DNA of 34,181 bases from Candidatus Peregrinibacteria bacterium. Its GTDB lineage: Bacteria; Patescibacteriota; Gracilibacteria; Peribacterales; Peribacteraceae. The stretch spans positions 1-34,181 of the forward strand of contig JACPXZ010000036.1 of NCBI GenBank assembly GCA_016196225.1. The letters run 5' to 3'. Of this stretch, positions 11,808-27,114 are shown in pieces (the first letter of the stretch is position 1; the number at the start of each line of letters is the position of its first letter). The translations under genes and the position numbers were made by a program. The notes under the pieces were generated by a model, which saw only the letters and a program-made list of their open reading frames with translations, did no database searches and was not told where the DNA came from.

Positions 11808-13493
11808 CTAGTTGCACGAATTCTGCGGGATGGGGAAGTTCATTTCGGAGTCCAGTTTTGCCGCCTGTATACATTTTTCGGAGCGAGGGCTCTCGCACGA
11901 ATCCCCAAGAAACGAACCGTTCGTGTACGGGAAGCATTCGTCGGCGAGTGCAATGCGAATAATCTTTTCGAGGATCATATTGCATGGCTGGTACACGCAT
12001 GTTCGGCGGATAAAATATGCAAACGCAATGGCGAATTCACGCATGCCGCTGCGGTCACTTGCGAGCGTTGCAAAGCTACCCACGGCACCCCGCAGAGGAC
12101 CAAGCGCGCCCCGCATTTCGAGGAGAGGATCGCTGCCAATAGGGAAGATGGTACTGTCACCCTGTTCCTGGAGACGACTGAAGAGTTGGAGTGCCGGTCG
12201 GGCAATGAATTGGAACATGGCACCGAATCCCGTTGTGTTTGGACTGACACCGCTGGTAGAAGGAGACAGCGCAGAAAATTCTTGGGGGAATTTGTAAACA
12301 TCCGGAAATTCACGTGATTCGCCATCCGCTTCGCGCGTTTCCCGAAAAACGTCGAGAATGCGTGGCTCATCTTTCTCAATCGAGAATGGTCCGCGCAGTT
12401 CCCACCAATTTGCATCTTCAGCGGTAATGCATCGGTCGCCAAATCCGCATTCCGCGTCATTGATACATGATTGAGAAGAATTCCGTTCACAGGATCCGCG
12501 CTTTAGTCCACTGACGCAGTTCCCCATGCCCGACTGTTGGCAGTCGATATTTTCAGTACATTGCATCTGTCTGTTAAATTCGCAGAAATTTCGGAGGCAT
12601 CCTCCTGCTGTGCGATGCAATCGAGGGGCGGACGGGACGGGACTGGTACCTGTTTGTTGCTGAAGATCCATGATTTGTTGTGCTTGTAAAAGGTAGGTTG
12701 ATACCTGGGTGGTAAGGGACTGGAGACTTGCCCGTTCGTCCGCGGTCGGTCGATGAGCGGTTCGCGGGGTAAGAATATCCAGATCGCAGCCAAACCCGAT
12801 CACGTTTGGCGGGAGATAATCGGTGTGGAACGGGCACATTTCTGTCTGGCACATTGGATTGCAACCGATCCCGCCGTCACATTCTTCCCCCACTTCTATA
12901 ATGTCGTTCCCGCATGTTGGCAGGGTGACAGTGGTGGCGGGCGTTCCAAATACATACGGACCACTGGGATTATCAAATAAGAAGGACCGGTGCCAGAACG
13001 GATCCTGATAGGACGGGTCCCGTGCGCCTTCGACGAGAACTTGGAGATGTTGGTTAAGAAAATGAAGCAAAGACTGAAGTCGTAAGATGCTTTCGGTCCT
13101 TTTGCCGACAATGGCCTGATGGAATGCCGTGCGCACCTCGTCTATTTTGCATTCGAGGAGGTACACATCAATGCGCAAACATGCGGTATTGCGAAGAAGA
13201 TCGCGCTCTGTTTGTACAATACGAAATTGCGTATCGAGTAGGGAAAGAAACGCGGTCTCAATCGCGCGGATCCAGCTTGGAAGGTACGTATTAAAGTTTG
13301 CATGGGCGGATTGTGTGGAGGCAAATGTAAGACCGGCGCTGGCTCGTTCGAGAACGCGCTCTGTAAAATGGGAGGAAACGGGGGGGAGAGACTGGAGAGC
13401 ATCCTTACAGTCGGGACTGAGGAGTGCTTGAGCCGGTTCTGGTTGGAGAACAAACATCGAAGCGATGCCGATCATGATGATTATCCGCTTCAT
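11808..13493 (-). CDS. Exported Cys-rich protein of unknown function (cassette gene 5)
   Basis: A 561-residue protein. The ATG at 13493 is preferred over one six codons upstream because it overlaps the previous TGA as ATGA and places a clean signal peptide (MKRIIIMIGIASMF to AQA, about 1-23) at the N-terminus. A helical region (about 30-160) contains several Cys. A segment near 195-220 reads CGNDIIEVGEECDGG followed by CNPMC, resembling the Cys-rich repeat of exported myxobacterial and other bacterial surface proteins (DUF4215-like). A second Cys-rich block (about 300-365, CLRNFCEF to CITAED) follows. The C-terminal half is helical with a few more Cys (RRTCVYQPCN). No enzyme motif was recognised. 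It is probably an extracytoplasmic, disulfide-stabilised protein working with the four genes before it. Confidence 0.85.
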   Translation of the reverse strand: MKRIIIMIGIASMFVLQPEPAQALLSPDCKDALQSLPPVSSHFTERVLERASAGLTFASTQSAHANFNTYLPSWIRAIETAFLSLLDTQFRIVQTERDLLRNTACLRIDVYLLECKIDEVRTAFHQAIVGKRTESILRLQSLLHFLNQHLQVLVEGARDPSYQDPFWHRSFLFDNPSGPYVFGTPATTVTLPTCGNDIIEVGEECDGGIGCNPMCQTEMCPFHTDYLPPNVIGFGCDLDILTPRTAHRPTADERASLQSLTTQVSTYLLQAQQIMDLQQQTGTSPVPSAPRLHRTAGGCLRNFCEFNRQMQCTENIDCQQSGMGNCVSGLKRGSCERNSSQSCINDAECGFGDRCITAEDANWWELRGPFSIEKDEPRILDVFRETREADGESREFPDVYKFPQEFSALSPSTSGVSPNTTGFGAMFQFIARPALQLFSRLQEQGDSTIFPIGSDPLLEMRGALGPLRGAVGSFATLASDRSGMREFAIAFAYFIRRTCVYQPCNMILEKIIRIALADECFPYTNGSFLGDSCESPRSEKCIQAAKLDSEMNFPIPQNSCN

Positions 13494-15406
13494 GGGGTTC
13501 CAAATGGGCACATCGCAACCGGAAATTCAGTCTCTTTTATCGAAGAAAGCAGTGTACTTGCGATATGGATGATGTCCGCAAGAGATCGGGTGGTTGCGCG
13601 GAGGTAATTGGCATAGAGACTTGTCGCGATGCGGGTTCCGATTGCTGCACCGGTAAGTTCCAGTCCCTTTATCGGTTCGTGTTGTTCTTTTCCCTGCATG
13701 AGAAGACGTTGGATGAGTGGTTGATAATCGGTTCCGGGATATGAGAGTGCCCGTCGGATATCAAAAAGACAAAGTGCGGGAGGGGTTCGCGGCGGGAGTC
13801 CGTTTATTTGACAAAGAGCGGCATCCAGCTTTTGGATAAGGAGTTGAGGACGATATCGGGGGATCGTTGTTTGGGTGATCGGAGGGATTTGGAGGATGGG
13901 AGTCCGTACAGGTTCAGGTTGTATACGACTTTCCCATGGATAGGACTGCCCTTCGACGACAAAGGTATTCTGGCCGGAGGTAAGGCGGTGGTATTCGAGC
14001 GATCCCTCAATACATGCGCCGATATAGCAGGCATTATTCCCGATGGTATTGCGATAAAGGACTTGTTCCCTCGGATCGCAGACAGGGCGTGAAGGTGTCG
14101 AGGATGAACTGCTTGTATTGATGCCGGTTGTTCGCCAGGCAATATCGGCACAGAGATCGGGGCCGAGTTGCGTGGTTTTAACGGTTGCATTTTTGTTCTG
14201 CTGACAACGCATGAGGGTGATTTGGTTGGTTTGAGTGGGTGGCTGTCCGCTCTCATCACATTTCTCGCCGGCGGTCTTGATACGATCGCGGCAAAGATAT
14301 CCCTTTGCAGGGAAGGGGTGAGTGCACAGGCCGAGCCCATCAACGGGTTTGTTTCCGGATACAGGGGCCGGCGGGTAGCGCCCGCCGAGAATGGCCTCTC
14401 CGTTGTCGCCAATGAGGGATGGTAGAGCGGGTTCTTGAGGGAACTGCCAGTGAAGACCGATGTCTCCCCATGGCCATCCAGCATTGGGATTCCCGTCAAT
14501 ACGTGCCCAGATAATAATGTTTTCGGGCATGTGCTGATCGAGGAAATCATTACCAAAGATAAATAGGACGATTTCCTTTTTGTCGAGTGGGGGATCGAAC
14601 TCATTCACATCGAAAGGGTTTTTGGGAAGGGCGCTCCAGATATCAACGAGCGCCTGCTCAATATCAGAGGTGCCGTTACTGCCGTTCCATCGCCGAAAGA
14701 GATCCTGACGTTCGGTATTGAGGCCGTTATCGGGATCACCACTCGGAGCTTCGAGGTGGAATGGAAGAAGTGGAGAAATACCAAATGAGGGAGTGCGCTC
14801 TCCTCGAACGAAACGCAGACCGTGCTGGTAGCGCCAAACCGCAGCAGCGCGTTCGTGCTCGGGGACTGCTATCAGTTTTGTACGGAGCGTATCCACCAGT
14901 GGACCCATGACCTGATGATCAATCAGTTTGGTTCGGACGAGGACGCCGGTACCGACATCTTCAATGTTTCCGCCTGTTCCCGTTTGCCAAATACTGATGA
15001 TGCCCTGATAGCGGGAGGAAAAATCCAGAGCCCGTCCCGGCATGCCATCTACCGGGAGTTCCTCGCCGGTGGTAAGCGCCTGCAAATTACGGCCGACGGC
15101 TCGGACCAATATTTCGCGTCCGAGGATGTCTCTGATCCGGACACGAAATTCCGCGCAATCGGTATGTTGTTTGGCGGGTTGTTTACCGCACACCGTTGCG
15201 ATCTGATTGCGAATAGTGCCGGTAATATCGGCGTCCGTGACATCCGAATAGATCTTCTGAATAAATTGTTTCACAATGGATTCGGCGTCCTCAAAGAGGA
15301 GTTCTTTCTTGAGCATATCAACGGTGTTTGTGTACGGGGAGGCGATAGCTCGCATGGGGACTATGAGACAAATTGCAATGCCGATCATAAAAGTGGGAAT
15401 GTTCAT
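13490..15406 (-). CDS. Exported protein of unknown function (cassette gene 4)
   Basis: A 638-residue protein. The start at 15406 forms an ATGA overlap with the preceding gene and gives a signal peptide (MNIPTFMIGIAICLIVP to AIA, about 1-22); a longer frame runs upstream but would bury the signal peptide. The N-terminal region (about 25-160) is helical, with VCGKQPAKQHTDC holding a Cys pair. A Pro/Trp-rich middle contains IIIWARIDGNPNAGWPWGD and a stretch of short Cys-containing segments (LCTHPFPAKGYLCRDRIK, CDPREQVLYR, CYIGACIEG) with a Ser-rich linker. The C-terminal region (about 560-638) is helical. No catalytic motif or membrane helix beyond the signal was found. Family unknown to me. Confidence 0.84.
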   Translation of the reverse strand: MNIPTFMIGIAICLIVPMRAIASPYTNTVDMLKKELLFEDAESIVKQFIQKIYSDVTDADITGTIRNQIATVCGKQPAKQHTDCAEFRVRIRDILGREILVRAVGRNLQALTTGEELPVDGMPGRALDFSSRYQGIISIWQTGTGGNIEDVGTGVLVRTKLIDHQVMGPLVDTLRTKLIAVPEHERAAAVWRYQHGLRFVRGERTPSFGISPLLPFHLEAPSGDPDNGLNTERQDLFRRWNGSNGTSDIEQALVDIWSALPKNPFDVNEFDPPLDKKEIVLFIFGNDFLDQHMPENIIIWARIDGNPNAGWPWGDIGLHWQFPQEPALPSLIGDNGEAILGGRYPPAPVSGNKPVDGLGLCTHPFPAKGYLCRDRIKTAGEKCDESGQPPTQTNQITLMRCQQNKNATVKTTQLGPDLCADIAWRTTGINTSSSSSTPSRPVCDPREQVLYRNTIGNNACYIGACIEGSLEYHRLTSGQNTFVVEGQSYPWESRIQPEPVRTPILQIPPITQTTIPRYRPQLLIQKLDAALCQINGLPPRTPPALCLFDIRRALSYPGTDYQPLIQRLLMQGKEQHEPIKGLELTGAAIGTRIATSLYANYLRATTRSLADIIHIASTLLSSIKETEFPVAMCPFGTP

Positions 15407-16170
15407 GATGGCGGAGGGTCTCGAAGTGATCCGCGGGCATCCCAGACGCGGGGGAGACAAGTGCTGCCTTCGGAGATAAGGCCGAGGACATTGCGAAGGT
15501 CCAAGGACGCGCGTTCGATGCATTCGAGATCAAGGAGAAATGGACGCAGGCGATCGAGAGCGCCGCTCGTGGAGAGGATGCGGTCGAGCGCCGATCGCGC
15601 AATACGAAGTTCCTGCTCGATAACGGACTCCCGGCGTTTACGTTCGACGCCGAATTCTGGCCACTGGAGAGGAAGCTTGGAAAAAAGAGGAGCATCATTC
15701 ATGATATTGACGTCGAGAAAGGTTCGGTGGTTTTTCAGAGCGCACTCATAGATGCGCAAAAATTCAAGGAGGACCACACCAAAATCCTGTTCGGAAAGAC
15801 TGGCGAGATTTTGCGGGTCCTGCCATGGAGGAAGTTGGGTGGCAATGAGGAAGAGTGGAGCGCTCGGTTGCAACAGACCGGAAAGGTCTGGGGCGGCGCA
15901 CTGAAGATTGGAGAAGAACGGTGAATCGGATCCCTGGTTATTAAAACTCTTGAGATGTGCAGTCACGGCAGCGTCTACCAGTTGATGGTAGGCATATGCC
16001 CAAAAATTGAAGGGGATCAGAGAGAAAATGGTTCCATCACCGGAGCAGGGGGGTAAGGTCGTATTGACAAAAAATCCCTGACGCGGAGGGGTGTTCCCTG
16101 GTGTGCAACTTGCGGTTATGATCGCAAGGAGAAACGTTGCCAGCGCTTTTTTGGATTGGTTCAATCGCAT
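15403..16170 (-). CDS. Predicted lipoprotein of unknown function (cassette gene 3)
   Basis: A 255-residue protein. The N-terminus MRLNQSKKALATFLLAIITASC has a basic start, a hydrophobic core and a plausible lipobox ending at Cys22, so it should be lipidated and anchored on the outer face of the membrane. The mature part is mainly helical with sparse Cys (at LPPCSG, NLQCAAPD, IYECALK, DLECIERAS and STCLPRV), giving possible disulfides. It starts 10 bases inside the previous gene and ends in an ATGA overlap with the next. LspA, which would process it, is encoded at 27135. Function unknown. Confidence 0.82.
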   Translation of the reverse strand: MRLNQSKKALATFLLAIITASCTPGNTPPRQGFFVNTTLPPCSGDGTIFSLIPFNFWAYAYHQLVDAAVTAHLKSFNNQGSDSPFFSNLQCAAPDLSGLLQPSAPLFLIATQLPPWQDPQNLASLSEQDFGVVLLEFLRIYECALKNHRTFLDVNIMNDAPLFSKLPLQWPEFGVERKRRESVIEQELRIARSALDRILSTSGALDRLRPFLLDLECIERASLDLRNVLGLISEGSTCLPRVWDARGSLRDPPPS

Positions 16171-16961
16171 TGGGAGATGAAGCAGGGGATACGGTCGAGC
16201 TGTCCGAGAATAGTCGCCGCATCCCAGAGCGGACGAAGGAGTGGGAAGCGCAGTGCATTGGTAAAGTTCTCAAATGCGCCGGCAAACTGAAGGAGGGATC
16301 GGTATCCGGCATCGTAGGCAACCGTCATTTCGAGGAGACTGATCTCCCGGGAAAGGAGGGCATCGGCGGACTCGAGGCATCGTGCATACATATCGGTCGG
16401 GAGTGCGGGGTTGGTTTTTTCGGTGAATGCGCAACCGGTAAATGTTGGGAAGGACATTTGCATGCACCCTGCCGGTTGGACTTTTGTGAGCGGACCTACC
16501 TCTGTTGGTGCTTGTTGTATGGTGAGGCAAATGGCAGCGAGGCGACATTGGAAAGCACGTATGCTCTGGGTGAGTGCGGGTATGAGTTCGGATGTGCTTG
16601 TATGGCGAATCTCGAAGATTCCGCGTCGGGTACGTGTTCCACTGATGCGATCCGTCTCGGATGATCCATCCACCAGCATGTCTGTAAGAGTGTTGGTATT
16701 CACGAGAGATTTCCAGGTATTTTTTTGCGTCTTCATCCACACACTTTTATCGTTCAAATGACGTACAGAACCGAGCGGTTCATGTTCTGCTTTTGGGAGA
16801 CCAAGGAGGACGCTGCGATATACGCGCTGTTCCTGAGCCATCGTGTTATACATATCAGCGGTACAGGAATTGAAATCCGGACTCTGGGCAGAGGTGCGAA
16901 AGACCGCAGCGCATGTGCCGATGCCAACAAGAACGCCGATTGTAGTCCATCGGGAAGGCAT
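16161..16961 (-). CDS. Exported helical protein of unknown function (cassette gene 2)
   Basis: A 266-residue protein with an N-terminal signal sequence (MPSRWTTIGVLVGIGTCAAVF, cleavage near TSAQS). The mature chain is predicted helical throughout, with paired Cys in QCRLAAICLT, GCMQMSFPTFTGC and the C-terminal PCFISQCD. The start codon lies one base after the TGA of the 1236-residue gene, so the two must be co-translated. Its C-terminal helical region, around EISLLEMTVAYDAGYRSLLQF, has the look of cassette gene 3, but I could not align them convincingly. No enzyme motif seen. Confidence 0.82.
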   Translation of the reverse strand: MPSRWTTIGVLVGIGTCAAVFRTSAQSPDFNSCTADMYNTMAQEQRVYRSVLLGLPKAEHEPLGSVRHLNDKSVWMKTQKNTWKSLVNTNTLTDMLVDGSSETDRISGTRTRRGIFEIRHTSTSELIPALTQSIRAFQCRLAAICLTIQQAPTEVGPLTKVQPAGCMQMSFPTFTGCAFTEKTNPALPTDMYARCLESADALLSREISLLEMTVAYDAGYRSLLQFAGAFENFTNALRFPLLRPLWDAATILGQLDRIPCFISQCD

Positions 16962-16962
16962 G

Positions 16963-19900
16963 TCAGGGGGTGAGGGGAAGGGAGGGGAGAACGGGACGAA
17001 GATCCACGCGTGGAACGATTTTCATCGACTCCAGGAGATCAGATGGTTTTGCCTCGTAGAGCGGCATGGCTGAGGACGACACTCCTCCAATCGGCTCCGG
17101 CAGATTGATGCTGCGTATGTTCGTACGGACGGCATCGATAAAATCCTGCTGGATGGTCGGGGCGTTGATCTTCCACCCCTCTTTGGGAAAGCGCGCTTTT
17201 GTATTGAGGAAGAGACAAACGTGATCGTCGGGAGGACAGGTGAAGGGATCGCTCCGCGGTTCACCATGTGAATCATAATCTTCGGCAAGGAGCACCGCAG
17301 GGCGGGATCCGATCCGGGTAAATCGTTCGAGGAGATCCATCTCGATGTGAACGCAGGGCCAGCTGGCCCATGCGGGACACCAAAAATACACTTCTCCGGT
17401 TTCTTCATCTTCAAAGTGGACGAGGCTGGACCAGAAGTCTTCATAACCTGGGAATCCTCCTGTTCCCTCTTCGGTTCCATAGGTCATGACGTACACCATG
17501 TAGAATATCTGAACCAATTCTTGCCAGAGTTTTTGTATGGAAGTGGCATCCGTGATGAGTGGTGGAGGGATGATCACACTTGGGGGGTTACCGAGAACTT
17601 GCACGTTTTGCAGTGGTACGTTATTGAGAGCATTACTCATGACATCCTTGATACCTTGGATGGAGGGAAGGTCGGCGAGTGTCGGGACAATCCCAGGGAG
17701 CGTCTCGATGGATGGCGGGCGGAGTTTTTCGATGTCGAGTTTAATTTGGATGGGACTGAGTACCGGGATCGTGATCGTTCCGGATGCCGTGATATTCAGC
17801 ATGGAGAAATCAAAGACAAAGTCCGTCGAGGTCTGGATCCCGTGGAGGATGGGAAGACACTGCGGCCACTTGATGGATCCGTCGGACGGACACGAATAGT
17901 CGAGAGAGCCATTGACGCGACCGGTCCGGTTTTCGCGTACCGGGATAAACGGATCAATGAGAGAATAGATGGGGATCGTGAATCGTTGGTTCATGCACCA
18001 GGGGAAATTCACGGTATCGTGGAATTGTTGATAAATATATTGCGTGAATTGCCAGACGGGGAGGAGCTCAGAGAAAATTTGCTGCCGACGATTGAGGAAG
18101 TCCCGGTACACGGTCAGGTTTTCTTCGATCCAATTTGCAATGGGCATAACAATACCGCTTTGCGTTTGTAAGGTGCGACCGAGATAGTAGGCAAGTTCTC
18201 CGCGTAGTCCCCTGACATCTTCAATACGCTCTGCATAGAGTTCGAGTTTTTTGATCAGATCAAGAACTTTCGGTGGAGCTCCGTCGCAGGTATTGATACG
18301 GCTGGCCGCTTGCGTATCGGGGATCTGGCGGTTGGAATATCCGATCCACCATGTGCACCAGTTCTCCGCAATCGCGCGGAGTTCCGTCGGAGATCCCATG
18401 GGGACGACGACGGGGACGGGTTCTTGTTCGATGTTGAGGAGGACCGATCGCTCGATGTAGGCGGCGACCTCGCCCATGAGGTCTTCGTGCGCGCGGAGTT
18501 GCACTTCCAGCGCATCGGTGCGGGTAAGGGGATTTGGGGACCCGATGCGCGTGGGGGTAAAGAGGGGGTCGAGGGGATCAATGCCGATCGCCCAGGTTGC
18601 GGGGAGAAGAAGCCGGACGGTTGGCGGAGAGAAAAGCATATTTGCTTTGGTCTGTTCACCTTGCCACCACTCGACGATCGGGCGGAGATCGCCGGTATCG
18701 TTTGTCACGGCATCATCGAATGCGCGGACGTATTTTTCCGCATAAGCGGATGAGCCGGATTGCTGCAGATGTTCCATGCGCATCTCGGCGGAATCGGGTT
18801 TGAGGAGGGCGAGAGAGAGATCCTTCCCCATCTTTTTGTCGAATATTTTCTCGTTGATAAAAGAGAATCCTCCTCCGAGCTTGAGATACCAAGGATCCTC
18901 ATCTTCGTCAAAATCGCCGCGCGCAAGCGGAGTACCGCCAAATCGTTGGTTTGGATCGAGTGCGGGATCACGATCGAGGATAGAGGAATTCTGTCCATAC
19001 TCTCCACGGAGCATGTGACTTTTTCGCATTTGTTCCCGGAGTGTTTTGTCCTTATCTTCCCCGAAGATATCGATGACGCAGCGCCAGTCGGAGGTATCCG
19101 GCATTTCTTCCAGCGGGTCAAATTCGCGGTACCACCCGTAGCAGGCGACTTCCCCTTCTTTTTCCGTCACTTCATCGATGGGATCATCGCTTGTTTGAAT
19201 AATGGGAGGGACGGGGAGAGGGTCGCGGGTAAATTTACTCTGATAGCGGCGGAAGAAGGAGATATACGGTGCGCCGTTTTTGGGAGCCATCCGCTCCGAA
19301 GCGAAGCATCCATCGATCGGACAACGACATTCTGCGCCCGGAGTGGAGTCGTCTTTGGTATAGGCGGCGGCCCCGACGAGATTAATATGATCTTCCACGC
19401 CGCAGGTCGTGACATTGGGATACTCGGTGTTTTCTTTGATCAAATATTCTTCGCATTGAGCAGGGATCTTGATGCCACTATGGTCTTCATCCAACCATAC
19501 CCAGCCGTGAGGAGCGATAAGTTTTCTGGCGTTTGGAGGAAAATCTCCGTCGTCATTTTTACACCATGCCTGCCATGGATGTGTACTCGGCGGTTTGGCG
19601 CCGTCTTCGTACGTACTATCCCAGACTGCCGGAGTGACTGCTTCGGTAGCATCCGCTGTACAAATGAATTTTTCACCAGCATGTTTTCCATCTTTCTCGA
19701 GCGCTTGCCTCATCAGACAGGCAAATGTCACCCACCCTTCCCATGTCGGACATTCAGCGAATCCAGGCAGTAAGGACTCTCCTGCTTCGGCGTACCCGTC
19801 GAGAATCGGGCAGCTATTACATTTTGCTTGAGTGTGCACAACACTGCCGTTGAGAGTGGCGTTTGTATCGTCTGTTGAATACGTATCCCATGCGTATAAC

Positions 19901-20671
19901 CACCAATCACAGGTTTCTTCTTTTACACCATCTTGTTCCCAGTGGCCTGCACCGGTTTCTTCATCATCAACAACCCATTTCCATTTTATTTCACAGGCAT
20001 ACGCATACATCCCCGCATAACATTCGCTGATCCGACACACGGGATAACGCCATTCGTTGTTGATGATGTCCGAGACCTTGAGGCAACTTTTTTCTGTGCT
20101 GCAAAACTGCTCGGGAATATTGAAGAATGCTTCGGGGAGCCACTCGCACCAGGGATTCTGGGTATCGTAGGCAAAAGCATATCCTTCCGCGCCGTGCGGG
20201 TACTTAAAATCATTATCTGCGCGAGCGGCCATTCCGGAGGGGGTATTCCCGCTCCATGTCCCCTCCCGTCCGGGGAGTCCTTCGAGAGGAGCGAGGGGAT
20301 ACCCGAGCATTTTGGGGAGTTGTACTAAAGGGATTCCATTTTCCGGAGTCTCCGGTGGTTCCGGCATATCTTGGGAAGATTCGGGCACTTCACTTTCGGC
20401 CCCGTCACCGTCCTCGATTTGTGCAATGTCTGCGATTTTTCCCTCAACACTTTCTTCTTTGTCCCACCCTCCGCATTGGGTCTCTTCAAAATAATCAAAA
20501 ATTTCTCCATCCTTCGTGACAAAATCTTGTCCGGTGACTTGCTCAAGTTCTTGGATACTGCCGGGAACGGGACTTGAAAGTTGATAAGGATCGCGCGCCT
20601 CGGCTGGCCTCGCGAAGGAGATCGTGAGTCCCATCAGAACCCCAAATGCCCAAAATGCAGTTTTTGTATTC
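16963..20671 (-). CDS. Large exported Cys/Trp-rich protein of unknown function (cassette gene 1); start codon TTG at 20671-20673
   Basis: A 1236-residue protein and the first gene of the cassette. Translation probably starts at a TTG occupying 20671-20673, because the signal peptide (MNTKTAFWAFGVLMGLTISF to AEA, about 1-26) begins there and a stop lies three codons upstream; the full CDS therefore extends to 20673. After an acidic Glu/Pro segment (about 85-110) there is a long region rich in Trp and Cys (about 165-540), with many CxnC pairs suited to disulfides. A helical region follows (about 760-860, containing ELAYYLGRTLQTQ). The C-terminal part is beta-rich and Pro-rich, with SGTITIPVLSPIQIKLDI. 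No second membrane segment and no sortase motif were found. It is likely a cell-surface or periplasm-like structural protein; family not recognised. Confidence 0.85.
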
Positions 20672-20681
20672 AAATCTATCT

Positions 20682-20840: not shown

Positions 20841-21707
20841 TTAAAACGGCAAATCCTCTACTTTTATCTCCGACGTATAGTCGATCGCAGGGATAGCTCC
20901 GACGCCAACCAAATCCTGGTCCGATGGTGGGGACGTTTCGCCCGCAGAGTTCGCTTCGCTATGCTTAACGCTATCCGTCTGGATGAACTCCTGAATACTC
21001 GGATCTTTGACTCCAAGAGGCACCACGCTCTCGGCAATGATTTCGGTGGTGTACCGTTTTACTCCGGCTTGGGTCTCAAAACTTCGGGTTTGCACCCGTC
21101 CTGTGGCATAGACTCGTTGCCCCTTTTTCATTGTTACTTGTGCTTGTTCTGCTAGCGCACCCCATACGACCACGTTATGGAATTCGGTCCGTTCGCGTGA
21201 TTCTCCGGTATTTCGTTCTTTCCAGCGGTCATTGGTGGCAACACCCAATGTGAGCACATGTTGACCACTCGGAGTCGTTCGCATTTCCGGATCGCGGGTG
21301 ACGTTCCCGATGACAAATGCTTGATTGAGACCGGAGGTAGTGGACTCTCCACTCTTTAACTCTCGTTGTCCGTCTTTTGGATCGAGCATGATCAGATCCA
21401 TGGCAACAATCTTGGTTTTGCTCCGCTTTTCATTACTTTTCGTGTCCTCCCATGTATCGGTTTGCAATCGTCCGGAAATAAAGAGTTGCGAGCCCGGACG
21501 CACAAACTGTCGGACGACATCCGCCATCGCACTCCAGACCGTAACAGTATGGAAGTTTTTTCCTTCGATCCATTGTCCGTTCTCACCCTTAAAGCGATAC
21601 GGTGTCACAAGGTTCATATCGGTGACTGAGGTCCCCGAGGGAGTTTGACGAACTAAAATTGGTTGTGTTTGGTACCCGATAAGATGAACACGATTGAGAG
21701 AGAACAT
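20841..21707 (-). CDS. ssb: Single-stranded DNA-binding protein with two OB folds
   Basis: A 288-residue protein carrying two complete SSB domains. OB1 (about 1-112) begins MFSLNRVHLIGYQTQP, with PSGTSVTDMNLVT and GSQLFISGRLQTDTWED. OB2 (about 128-232) begins LNQAFVIGNVTRDPEM, with PSGQHVLTLGVATN, EFHNVVVWG and GQRVYATGRVQTRSFE. A short flexible tail ends in EDLPF, matching the acidic C-terminal tip that recruits partner proteins. Most bacterial SSBs have one OB fold and act as tetramers; two per chain, as in Deinococcus/Thermus, predicts a dimer. The start at 21707 was chosen because similarity begins there; a longer frame reaches 21764. TACCCT lies eight bases upstream. The region upstream to the repeat at 21820 holds no gene. 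Confidence 0.94.
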   Translation of the reverse strand: MFSLNRVHLIGYQTQPILVRQTPSGTSVTDMNLVTPYRFKGENGQWIEGKNFHTVTVWSAMADVVRQFVRPGSQLFISGRLQTDTWEDTKSNEKRSKTKIVAMDLIMLDPKDGQRELKSGESTTSGLNQAFVIGNVTRDPEMRTTPSGQHVLTLGVATNDRWKERNTGESRERTEFHNVVVWGALAEQAQVTMKKGQRVYATGRVQTRSFETQAGVKRYTTEIIAESVVPLGVKDPSIQEFIQTDSVKHSEANSAGETSPPSDQDLVGVGAIPAIDYTSEIKVEDLPF

Positions 21708-21715
21708 AGTAGAGA

Positions 21716-21721
21716 AGGGTA
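21716..21721 (-). promoter_or_regulatory. Candidate -10 box (TACCCT) of ssb
   Basis: TACCCT on the minus strand ends 8 bases before the ATG at 21707. It is a weak match by itself, and is listed because its position fits the other start-proximal TAnnnT boxes. Confidence 0.35.
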
Positions 21722-21819
21722 GGGAGTAAAGGAGGCCACGGAGATGACCACGTGCATGGTGCACTGATGTTTCATTAAAAACAAATAAATGAAGTTGAAG
21801 GCTTTGGAAGTTTGTTGTG

Positions 21820-24344: not shown

Positions 24345-24944
24345 CTAATTTTCTACCTTGACGGTAAATGTTACCGGTTCCAATGGTTGATCTTTGTGAT
24401 CACGTTCCACATTGGCGATGGTATCGACAATGTTCATTCCATCTATTACTTTTCCAAATGCGGTGTGCTTACCCTGGAGCCAGGGGGTTCCGTCTTCATT
24501 TTGAATAATGAAAAACTGCGACCCGTTTGTATCGGGTCCCCGATTCGCCATGGCGATTACTCCGCGATCCATGAGGATTTCGCTTGGCTCATCTTCAAAC
24601 GTCGGCCCAAAAATACTTTCTCCGCCTGTGCCATCTCCATTCGGGTCTCCCCCTTGGATCATGAAGGCGGGGATTACCCGGTGAAACGGAAGACCGTTAT
24701 AGTATCCGGATTGTGCAAGGACGACGAAATTGGTGACAGTCTTCGGGGCCTGGTCGGCATCAAGCTCGAGAGTGATATCTCCTTTCGATGTCTCGAGAAC
24801 GACGGTATGTCTTCCCGTAAGGATTTTGCCGTCGAATCCAATGAGGGTGGGGGAGGGTGAGTCTTTCATTGTTGAAGCATTATTTTGAGTACAGCCAATG
24901 AGCAAGATAGCCGCAGCAAATAACGGAAGAAGAACCCGGACCAT
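24345..24944 (-). CDS. Cyclophilin-type peptidyl-prolyl isomerase, predicted lipoprotein
   Basis: A 199-residue protein. The N-terminus MVRVLLPLFAAAILLIGC is a lipoprotein signal with Cys18, so the enzyme should sit on the outer membrane face and assist folding of exported proteins. The cyclophilin core starts near residue 46 (TVVLETSKGDITLEL). Catalytic and substrate residues are present: PFHRVIPAFMIQGGDP with the catalytic Arg, GVIAMANRG, NGSQFFI, and PWLQGKHTAFGKV including the conserved Trp. The domain is complete. The gene follows murG by 12 bases. TAGCAT, which overlaps the murG TAG stop, lies nine bases before the ATG. It may fold the large disulfide-rich exported proteins encoded nearby, but that is inference. 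Confidence 0.94.
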   Translation of the reverse strand: MVRVLLPLFAAAILLIGCTQNNASTMKDSPSPTLIGFDGKILTGRHTVVLETSKGDITLELDADQAPKTVTNFVVLAQSGYYNGLPFHRVIPAFMIQGGDPNGDGTGGESIFGPTFEDEPSEILMDRGVIAMANRGPDTNGSQFFIIQNEDGTPWLQGKHTAFGKVIDGMNIVDTIANVERDHKDQPLEPVTFTVKVEN

Positions 24945-24953
24945 AACCCGTCC

Positions 24954-24959
24954 ATGCTA
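24954..24959 (-). promoter_or_regulatory. Candidate -10 box (TAGCAT) of the cyclophilin gene
   Basis: On the minus strand TAGCAT begins with the murG stop codon TAG and ends 9 bases before the cyclophilin ATG. The hexamer is a modest match and could be coincidental. Confidence 0.3.
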
Positions 24960-25940
24960 GAGATGTTCGACATGTCCTACAAGGTGGTCAAGAATAACTT
25001 TTGTGATCTTCAAGCGAGCATCGCTTGTCCTGAAGTCGTCCGTAGGACGTACTTCGGGGGTTTTATAGAGTGCTTTAAGAGTGTAGTGAATCGTTTCCAT
25101 TAATTTCCCCTTCAATTTCTCCTGTTCCATATGGATAAAGAGGGGGCTGGACGTCGCTGCATGAACAGCATTGTGGTATTGGTGATCATGGCCGACTTCT
25201 CTTAAGGGGACGAGAATGGTTGGGATATTATTTGCTTGTAATTCTGCGATGGTATTTGCTCCAGCCCGACTTAGTGCAACATTCGCAATGGCATACAAAT
25301 GAGGGAGCTCATCGTATGCGAATTCCGTAGACCAATATCCTTTGAGATTCGAGATTGGACCAGCCTTCGCCCAGCCGTCGCACACAGCGCTATGGCTGGC
25401 AGGCAAGGCTATGGCCGGCAAGTATTGGAGATTAGACTTTTTTCCTTGGCCGGTGATATGGGCGATATCAACCATCTTTAGTAATTCTTCCAAATTACTC
25501 CAAATCATTTCATTGAGTGCTTTTGCACCCTGACTTCCTCCGAGCACGAGGAGGATCGGTTTTTTCCCGGAAAAACCGGTGATGGAGAGTCCTTTTTCTT
25601 GTAATCCTCCGGTGATCTCCTCTCGAACAGGATTGCCGTTTTGAAAGAAGACGTGTGTTGCCAATATTGAGAGAAGCCGATTTGCCCTTCCGATCACCAT
25701 ATCCGATTCGTGGAGAATGATGGGAATTCTTTTTATGTAGGCAATGAGACAGAGTGGTAAAGATATCGAAGTCCCCTTGCTGAATATCAGGTCTGGTTTT
25801 TGAAACGTAGCTTCATTGGGATTGGTCCCGCAGATAAAATGAAAATCTATGTCCCTCTGTTTGCTTAGTTCCTGGGCAATTGCGACGCTCGGGGCAATGT
25901 GTCCAATGGAACCACCCCCCACAAAAAGCACCTTCTTCAT
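24957..25940 (-). CDS. murG: MurG-like UDP-GlcNAc:lipid I transferase with an internal deletion and an insertion
   Basis: A 327-residue glycosyltransferase that would convert lipid I to lipid II at the inner face of the membrane. It has GGGSIGHIAPS (8-18) in place of the usual GGTGGH loop, LHESDMVIGRANR, VLGGSQGAKALN (133-143), SRAGANTIAEL and REVGHDHQYHNA, all expected for the family. Between GT (38-39) and KPDLIFSKG (48-56) only about 8 residues are present where E. coli MurG has about 53, removing part of the N-terminal acceptor domain. Between GQGKKS and FAYDEL there are about 17 extra residues encoded by a GC-rich repeat. The frame is uninterrupted. It could be a working divergent enzyme, a decaying copy, or an assembly artefact. 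It starts 4 bases after the ftsW stop. Confidence 0.85.
   Translation of the reverse strand: MKKVLFVGGGSIGHIAPSVAIAQELSKQRDIDFHFICGTNPNEATFQKPDLIFSKGTSISLPLCLIAYIKRIPIILHESDMVIGRANRLLSILATHVFFQNGNPVREEITGGLQEKGLSITGFSGKKPILLVLGGSQGAKALNEMIWSNLEELLKMVDIAHITGQGKKSNLQYLPAIALPASHSAVCDGWAKAGPISNLKGYWSTEFAYDELPHLYAIANVALSRAGANTIAELQANNIPTILVPLREVGHDHQYHNAVHAATSSPLFIHMEQEKLKGKLMETIHYTLKALYKTPEVRPTDDFRTSDARLKITKVILDHLVGHVEHL
25355..25425. repeat. Repeat-like GC-rich insertion inside murG
   Basis: Contains GGCTGGCAGGCAAGGC, GGCTATGGCCGGCAAG and CCAGCCTTCGCCCAGCC, a set of short GGC/GCC repeats unlike the surrounding coding sequence. It resembles the GCCGGCAGGCAGG motif upstream of aspS (5075-5100). 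It encodes about residues 172-195, which match no usual MurG segment. Confidence 0.6.
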
Positions 25941-25944
25941 GTGA

Positions 25945-27114
25945 CTAGATTACGTGCCTTTTCCTTCTCGCCGCAATCGTTTCCACCCTTGAATAACTGG
26001 AGATATTGAGAAGAATACCCACTGCGAGCAAGAGCGAGACGAGGGACGATCCTCCATAACTTATAAATGGCAGAGTAAGACCTGTGAGCGGAAAAAGAGA
26101 AAGGTTGACGGCGATATTCAGAAGTGTCTGAAAGGCAACCCACATGGTGATGCCCGTTGCGACAAGAAATCCAAACCGATCGGGGGCCGTTTGTGCGATG
26201 TGGAACCCTCGTACGATAAAAATCGTGTACATACCAAGGATGATGAGCAGACGGAAAAATCCAAGTTCTTCCGCCATCGCAGCGAATATGGTATCTGCTT
26301 GTACTTCAGGGAGATAACCGAATTTTTGGACGGATTTCCCGTATCCCGCACCAAATAATCCTCCGGAGCCTATAGCAATGAGCGCCTGTTTAATTTGAAA
26401 ACCGATCGTCTCGGTAATCGACGGATCATTGGGAAAAAAGAACGCCTTAAAACGGTTACGGATATAGGGAGTTGTCAGAATGAAAGGGAGACCGATGGCC
26501 GCTGCCAGACTTCCACCAAGAATGAGATGAGTGATGTTGCCGCCTCCGACAAAGAACATCGTGGATGCAATTGCAGTAAGGACGAGGAATGAACCGAGAT
26601 CGGGTTGAACGGCGACGAGCCCCGTACTGATAATGAGGAGAATTGCGAAGGGGACAAATCCTTCGTGCAGATTGGATACAAATTGCTCCCGCTTTTGCAA
26701 CCATACTGCGAGATAGAGAATGAGTGTGAGTTTAAGGAATTCGGATGGCTGGAAGGATAAAAGACCTGCAAAAAGAATCCAGCTGCGTGCGGTTCCATAA
26801 TTCGCGCCGATGCCCGGTATCAACACGGATATCAGGAGGATGAGCGTGAGGATAAAAAGTGGACGTGCCGCGTAGGACCACAGAGAGTAAGGGATGATCA
26901 TCCCGATACCGAGCGCTGCCATTCCAAAAATGACATGAAGAAAACTGCGCCAGAGATAGAAGGAGTTGGTCGGTTCTGTCCGTATTCCTTGTGATACCAG
27001 TCGTTCGGTGAGTTGATAGCTTTCGTACACGCTGACACTTGCGATCATGGCAAGACCGAAGAATGTGAGTCCGAGCGCAATGCCGAGGAGCAAGAAGTCG
27101 ATTCTTCGAAACAT
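25945..27114 (-). CDS. ftsW: SEDS-family peptidoglycan glycosyltransferase FtsW
   Basis: A 389-residue integral membrane protein with about ten hydrophobic segments. It polymerises lipid II at the division site together with a class B PBP. SEDS signatures: the large extracellular loop with SFQPSEFLKLTLILYLAVW, the VAVQPDLGSFLVL segment, GYLPEVQADTIFAAMAEELG, and the C-terminal TLPFISYGGSSLVSLLLAVG. FtsW is preferred over RodA because murG follows directly, as in dcw clusters, but RodA is not excluded. The ATG is 20 bases from the divergent lspA ATG, with TACACT seven bases upstream. It heads the ftsW-murG-cyclophilin group. Confidence 0.93.
   Translation of the reverse strand: MFRRIDFLLLGIALGLTFFGLAMIASVSVYESYQLTERLVSQGIRTEPTNSFYLWRSFLHVIFGMAALGIGMIIPYSLWSYAARPLFILTLILLISVLIPGIGANYGTARSWILFAGLLSFQPSEFLKLTLILYLAVWLQKREQFVSNLHEGFVPFAILLIISTGLVAVQPDLGSFLVLTAIASTMFFVGGGNITHLILGGSLAAAIGLPFILTTPYIRNRFKAFFFPNDPSITETIGFQIKQALIAIGSGGLFGAGYGKSVQKFGYLPEVQADTIFAAMAEELGFFRLLIILGMYTIFIVRGFHIAQTAPDRFGFLVATGITMWVAFQTLLNIAVNLSLFPLTGLTLPFISYGGSSLVSLLLAVGILLNISSYSRVETIAARRKRHVI
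25947..25952 (-). promoter_or_regulatory. Candidate -10 box (TAATCT) before murG
   Basis: TAATCT on the minus strand ends 6 bases before the murG ATG and shares one base with the ftsW TAG stop. It lies in the last codons of ftsW, so murG may have an extra start-proximal promoter besides ftsW read-through. Confidence 0.35.

Follow-up and report, generated by a model that had tools for sequence, protein, structure and literature searches.

The locus described here raises the question of whether a MurG without the counterparts of most membrane-contact residues of the E. coli enzyme can still serve as the lipid II synthase of the cell encoding it. The gene lies in a window of 34,181 nucleotides (the whole stretch of DNA that was analysed), which is contig 14 of the 38 contigs of the 1.085-Mb, 97.7% complete genome of a Peribacteria-like bacterium. 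It and its immediate neighbours are arranged as follows:

24957..25940, minus strand: murG, encoding 327 amino acids from an ATG start, flanked by ftsW and a cyclophilin-type isomerase gene
25945..27114, minus strand: ftsW, the upstream neighbour of murG, used as the control for evolutionary rate
24345..24944, minus strand: cyclophilin-type isomerase gene adjoining murG, recognised by a profile match

The murG frame starts 4 bp after ftsW, and murB lies three genes downstream, with gltX between it and the isomerase gene; murG thus sits in a cell-wall/division gene cluster of the kind expected for this family. The order ftsW-murG-isomerase-gltX is identical in a Candidatus Peribacteria contig (L031; JAHFJN010000001.1), whose MurG is 44% identical to that of the window. 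Elsewhere in the window, a single 307-residue SSB chain (20841-21764, minus strand) contains two SSB/OB domains, at residues 24-136 and 146-248, an arrangement like that of the two-domain SSBs of Deinococcus-Thermus. Between dnaE and ssb (11808-20673, minus strand) there are five long ORFs of 567, 677, 255, 266, and 1236 amino acids with no Pfam match at E 0.001.

In a Pfam profile search the murG product recovers both domains of the family. The donor domain PF04101 scores 97.3 bits against a cut-off of 22, within the 90-106 bits of its relatives. The acceptor domain PF03033 scores 49.7 bits, above its gathering score of 26.2, but its best stretch covers only positions 87-138 of the 139 in the profile, whereas in 8/8 relatives it forms one stretch from profile position 1-2 to 136-138. 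Against the TIGR01133 equivalog cut-off of 250.25 bits the protein reaches 126.9; as all eight intact relatives also fall below it (193-227 bits), this cut-off does not discriminate in this clade. The best match in the PDB is E. coli MurG (1f0k). With the known MurG enzymes (UDP-GlcNAc:lipid I N-acetylglucosaminyltransferases of family GT28; E. coli 1F0K/1NLM, P. aeruginosa 3S2U, A. baumannii 7D1I) the window gene shares both Pfam domains, the adjoining ftsW and the motif order GGxxxGH - KPDxxFSKG - HESD/HEQN - GNPVR - GGSQGA - SRAGAxTxxEL - Q/N. It differs from them in lacking strand 3 and helix 3 with the loop that joins them, and in having gained a 21-codon repeat insert in the C-domain. 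The gene is present in a single copy: the second murG for which the earlier note had suggested looking was not found, a PF04101 search of the genome (of which 2.3% may be missing) returning no second protein with this domain. Within the explanation that we favour below, the gene is a true MurG orthologue, with predicted lipid II synthase activity.

What was lost can be located closely by alignment with relatives:

25802..25803, minus strand: junction of the deletion, F46 and Q47 being the codons on either side; about 111 bp are missing by comparison with the family
25803..25829, minus strand: residues 38-46 (GTNPNEATF), the remnant of helix B before the junction, placed by alignment and by helix 41-49 of the low-confidence L031 model

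Between F35 (in HFIC) and D50 (in KPDLIF) the window protein has 14 residues, against 47-62 (mode 51) in 82/82 fully aligned relatives, which gives a loss of about 37 amino acids, or 111 bp, in frame. The earlier note had reported about 45 missing residues at 25803-25830. Against E. coli MurG (28.6% identity over 294 aligned positions) the deletion is a single gap of about 44-46 residues, 44 by our count, and within the family it is about 37; the junction falls on the low-coordinate edge of that interval. Of the 82 relatives, 12 are from the class and 70 from the family, for which 73 genomes were compared besides that of the window. They were drawn from 86 aligned locus rows, of which four were set aside: two cut by contig ends (L089 and L095), one in pieces (L097) and one that is the same gene as that of L015 (L061). 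The gene of L097 is in pieces under translation table 11, and TGA may be a sense codon in some genomes of the class; L112, truncated at a contig end, was also dropped from the length count. Among the three remaining family genomes, two have no MurG match and one has its gene cut by a contig end. Six further class members were chosen for their short frames or overlapping matches: five have 58 residues between the same anchors, and in the sixth the gene is cut, with the second half of the segment visible. In the same class, the murG matches of five genomes (G044, G055, G046, G048, and G057) contain one to nine in-frame TGA codons, which suggests that TGA is translated into an amino acid in some families of the class.

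In all, the segment is kept in 87/87 measurable relatives (70 family genomes and 17 class members), and the alignment with related genomes that the earlier note had proposed as a check yields none with an equally short segment. A class-wide search found matches in 315/353 genomes, and none among the matches listed crosses query positions 40-55 without extra length. Together these results rule out a naturally smaller MurG N-domain throughout this group of Patescibacteria; we found no support for it and regard it as extremely improbable. The in-frame loss of about 37 residues relative to the gene's own family is hence a confirmed observation, and it is so far known from one genome only of the 88 measured, including that of the window.

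A wrong start codon or a frameshift is ruled out, as only three open codons precede the ATG and the frame runs through; the ORF is continuous and the start of strand 4 (KPDLIF) is preserved, in agreement with the intact frame and normal flanks described earlier. There remains the explanation that the loss is an assembly or consensus artefact, or the path of a minority strain in a metagenome-type assembly of 38 contigs, the usual murG of this organism having the segment. The genus is represented among the genomes compared by this single assembly, with no other genome of the genus for comparison, and the presence of the segment in every family genome but the three that are unmeasurable would fit such an error. 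However, a random-length error has one chance in three of being in frame, as this loss is, and it leaves the beginning of strand 4 intact. To our knowledge, neither short-read nor long-read assemblies usually err by dropping about 111 bp cleanly from within a sequence. Nor does a direct repeat of useful length stand at the junction: the repeat families found lie elsewhere, and none flanks 25802/25803, which argues, although weakly, against repeat collapse. We consider an artefact unlikely.

The earlier note had further tied the loss to a gain elsewhere in the protein, through an exact sum of lengths (355 - 45 + 17 = 327). This sum does not survive alignment: against the E. coli sequence used here, which has 356 residues, there are 16 gap runs (the main ones being -44, -10, and +19) that total -29. 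A loop before GNPVR (residues 96-104; 25630-25655) is about 10 residues shorter than in E. coli, and is also short in L003, L005, and L027. The gain proves to be of another kind altogether:

25360..25422, minus strand: 63-bp in-frame insert of 21 codons, consisting of a 30-bp palindromic unit with a related 33-bp unit nested mid-way

As a result, the stretch from GQGK to GYWSTEF has 33 residues in the window protein, against 7-8 in most relatives and 29 in one. A near-identical intact copy of the 30-bp unit is found elsewhere in the genome (G000:C3:11631-11657), within a Mur-ligase-like gene, in whose open frame it encodes LPAIALATAG; of two further copies (G000:C37:56694-56728 and 57273-57291), one lies in the frame of a gene that reads from its sequence as subtilase-like, and the other is apparently intergenic. 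The insert therefore consists of repeat DNA that has become part of the reading frame in a C-domain loop; it is unrelated to the loss in the N-domain, for which it cannot compensate, and the agreement in length is coincidental. The palindromic repeat of about 30 bp (CTTGCCGGCCATAGCCTTGGCGACGGCTGG), present as two nested units in murG, is reminiscent of the in-frame palindromic elements of Rickettsia, and a looser form of its pattern has matches in 4/59 relatives. The insert hairpin (inner hairpin at 25371-25399) has a predicted energy of -31 kcal/mol, but 26/200 shuffled sequences reach as low a value (z -1.29), so that it is no evidence in itself.

From the N-domain, the deletion removes the last part of helix B together with strand 3, helix 3 and the loop between these two; this corresponds to about residues 50-93 of E. 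coli MurG. In the part of the literature accessible to us, the E. coli enzyme is described as having a hydrophobic patch of I75, L79, F82, W85, and W116 and a basic ring of K69, K72, R80, R86, R89, and K140, each numbered one higher than in the E. coli sequence aligned here (PMC5785501). Mapped on E. coli, the gap takes four of the five hydrophobic-patch residues and five of the six basic ones, and the membrane-contact segment of patch, ring and helix 3 is absent from the window protein. The earlier placement of the missing part in the N-terminal Rossmann domain, in a region said to bind lipid I and the membrane, is thus upheld as to its position and as to its carrying the majority of the residues with which E. 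coli MurG contacts the membrane. The family counterpart of the lost stretch is likewise hydrophobic and basic (consensus APRxSxxFPxxF) and moderately conserved (e.g., L 0.79, P 0.74, F 0.72). In a structure model of the intact L031 protein (mean pLDDT 41.4) the removed unit consists of a helix end, a strand at 55-59 and helices at 62-84, all of which are absent from the model of the window protein (mean pLDDT 38.9); both models are of low confidence, having been built from two sequences only, and are too poor to tell whether the protein folds. MurG chains rank first in a Foldseek search with the window model, at TM 0.24-0.27 and an rmsd of about 20 Å, which amounts to family recognition only.

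Several experimental precedents, as available in excerpts of the respective papers, concern this surface. In R. sphaeroides MurG the single patch change L76E abolishes membrane binding (PMC6381277), and in A. baumannii MurG the hexamer contact involves the strand 3-helix 3 loop (PMC8256705). LpxB and PimA are GT-B enzymes whose hydrophobic/basic face for membrane docking lies in this region as well, and experiments have found it important in both: six changes in the matching patch of LpxB block complementation, and a loop deletion renders PimA inactive (PMC5785501). These enzymes act on other substrates, and the excerpts describe point changes and one loop deletion, as against the whole strand-helix unit lost here. 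A narrow phrase search of the literature on shortened MurG, as far as its texts were accessible, returned no description of an internal deletion. A search of viral contigs for MurG relatives gave 18 pattern matches, none of which was confirmed.

Against this loss stands what was kept:

25899..25919, minus strand: first glycine loop GGGSIGH (residues 8-14), aligning with E. coli GGTGGH, with the position of the catalytic-base His kept
25761..25781, minus strand: second glycine loop SKGTSIS (residues 54-60), with its second Gly replaced by Thr
25701..25712, minus strand: HESD (residues 77-80), the retained counterpart of the HEQN acceptor loop
25524..25541, minus strand: GGSQGA donor-phosphate loop (residues 134-139), kept in the alignment

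H19 is the predicted catalytic base of MurG (PMC5785501, in part), and the accessible text of PMC8256705 describes the HEQN loop as critical for lipid I and also covers the GGS loop. All motifs for catalysis and substrate binding (GGxxGH, second G-loop, HE, GNP, GGSQGA, and SRxGxxTxxE) are present, and Thr57 is the single departure: this position is Gly in 78 of 83 sequences, Ser in four and Thr in the window protein alone. Of 70 positions with at least 80% conservation among relatives, the protein retains 65, a larger share than 43 of 82 relatives retain. In trees of 44 taxa its mean MurG/FtsW distance ratio ranks 16th, at 2.15 where the median is 2.08, and the divergence of the N-domain around the deletion does not exceed that expected from the C-part (rank 44 of 83). 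Taken together, these measures give no sign of old decay; with the kept motifs, they speak against a long-dead enzyme, though not against a recent lesion.

Such a lesion is the second explanation to be weighed: the strain or population sampled may carry a recent real deletion that has crippled or inactivated its MurG, too new for the remainder to have decayed. The cell would then survive on what activity is left, on a different glycosyltransferase, or on material from a host. The removal of most of the patch and basic residues and the occurrence of the deletion in a single measured genome would fit this. The gene also has three separate indels, and the protein stands at the top of the 83 aligned sequences both for missing core columns (47/340; the next has 22 and the median is 1) and for rare inserted residues (24). 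A replacement has a precedent in MglA, a diverged relative that takes the place of MurG as an alternative lipid II synthase of Kitasatospora/Streptomyces among some actinobacteria (PMC8092295, as excerpted). However, MglA is a second gene with both domains, and the PF04101 search found no counterpart of it in this genome. Residue-level constraint is normal in both domains, and there is neither a frameshift nor a stop. We hold a recent lesion to be rather improbable, though somewhat likelier than an artefact.

The reading that we tentatively place first, at a little short of an even chance, is a real, lineage-specific deletion in a MurG that is still used, with an altered membrane contact. The need for the enzyme is consistent with it: the genome has four Mur-ligase matches, two of PF00953 (the MraY/WecA kind), and two transpeptidase matches, with the MurB and FtsW genes inside the window, and Peribacteria are described as carrying all genes for peptidoglycan synthesis (PMC4736985, as excerpted). 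As the pathway parts searched for are present, lipid II is presumably made, and the window MurG is the only candidate enzyme found. We propose that the lineage of one species lost one strand-helix unit of the N-terminal Rossmann domain, about 111 bp in frame, which would join strand 2 to strand 4 via the remaining 13-residue link. Strand 3 should lie at the edge of the sheet, as is general for Rossmann folds, so that this joining would be possible and the core may still fold. The shortened enzyme would still make lipid II, and what remains of the patch, an oligomer, or partner proteins (e.g., MraY or FtsW) would then have to provide its membrane contact.

Several points weigh against a deletion in a still-used enzyme. 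It occurs in no relative, so that its persistence through speciation is not seen; normal rates are equally expected from a very recent deletion; the lost segment is moderately conserved, and by analogy with R. sphaeroides MurG and LpxB, where patch changes are harmful in the cases excerpted, its loss may be too; and the second G-loop also lacks the Gly kept in most sequences. The more specific proposal that this is a working lipid II synthase without the strand 3-helix 3 dock, in which catalysis and docking are separable and docking is provided by partners or the remaining surface, we regard as doubtful.

On the present basis of one gene in one assembly, the finding would have different meanings under these readings. 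If the deletion is not compatible with function, this would be a bacterium with a wall pathway living with a crippled lipid II synthase. If it is real and the enzyme functional, the gene would be a natural deletion mutant by which the parts of MurG, an antibiotic target, that are required for access to lipid I could be told from those serving membrane residence alone.
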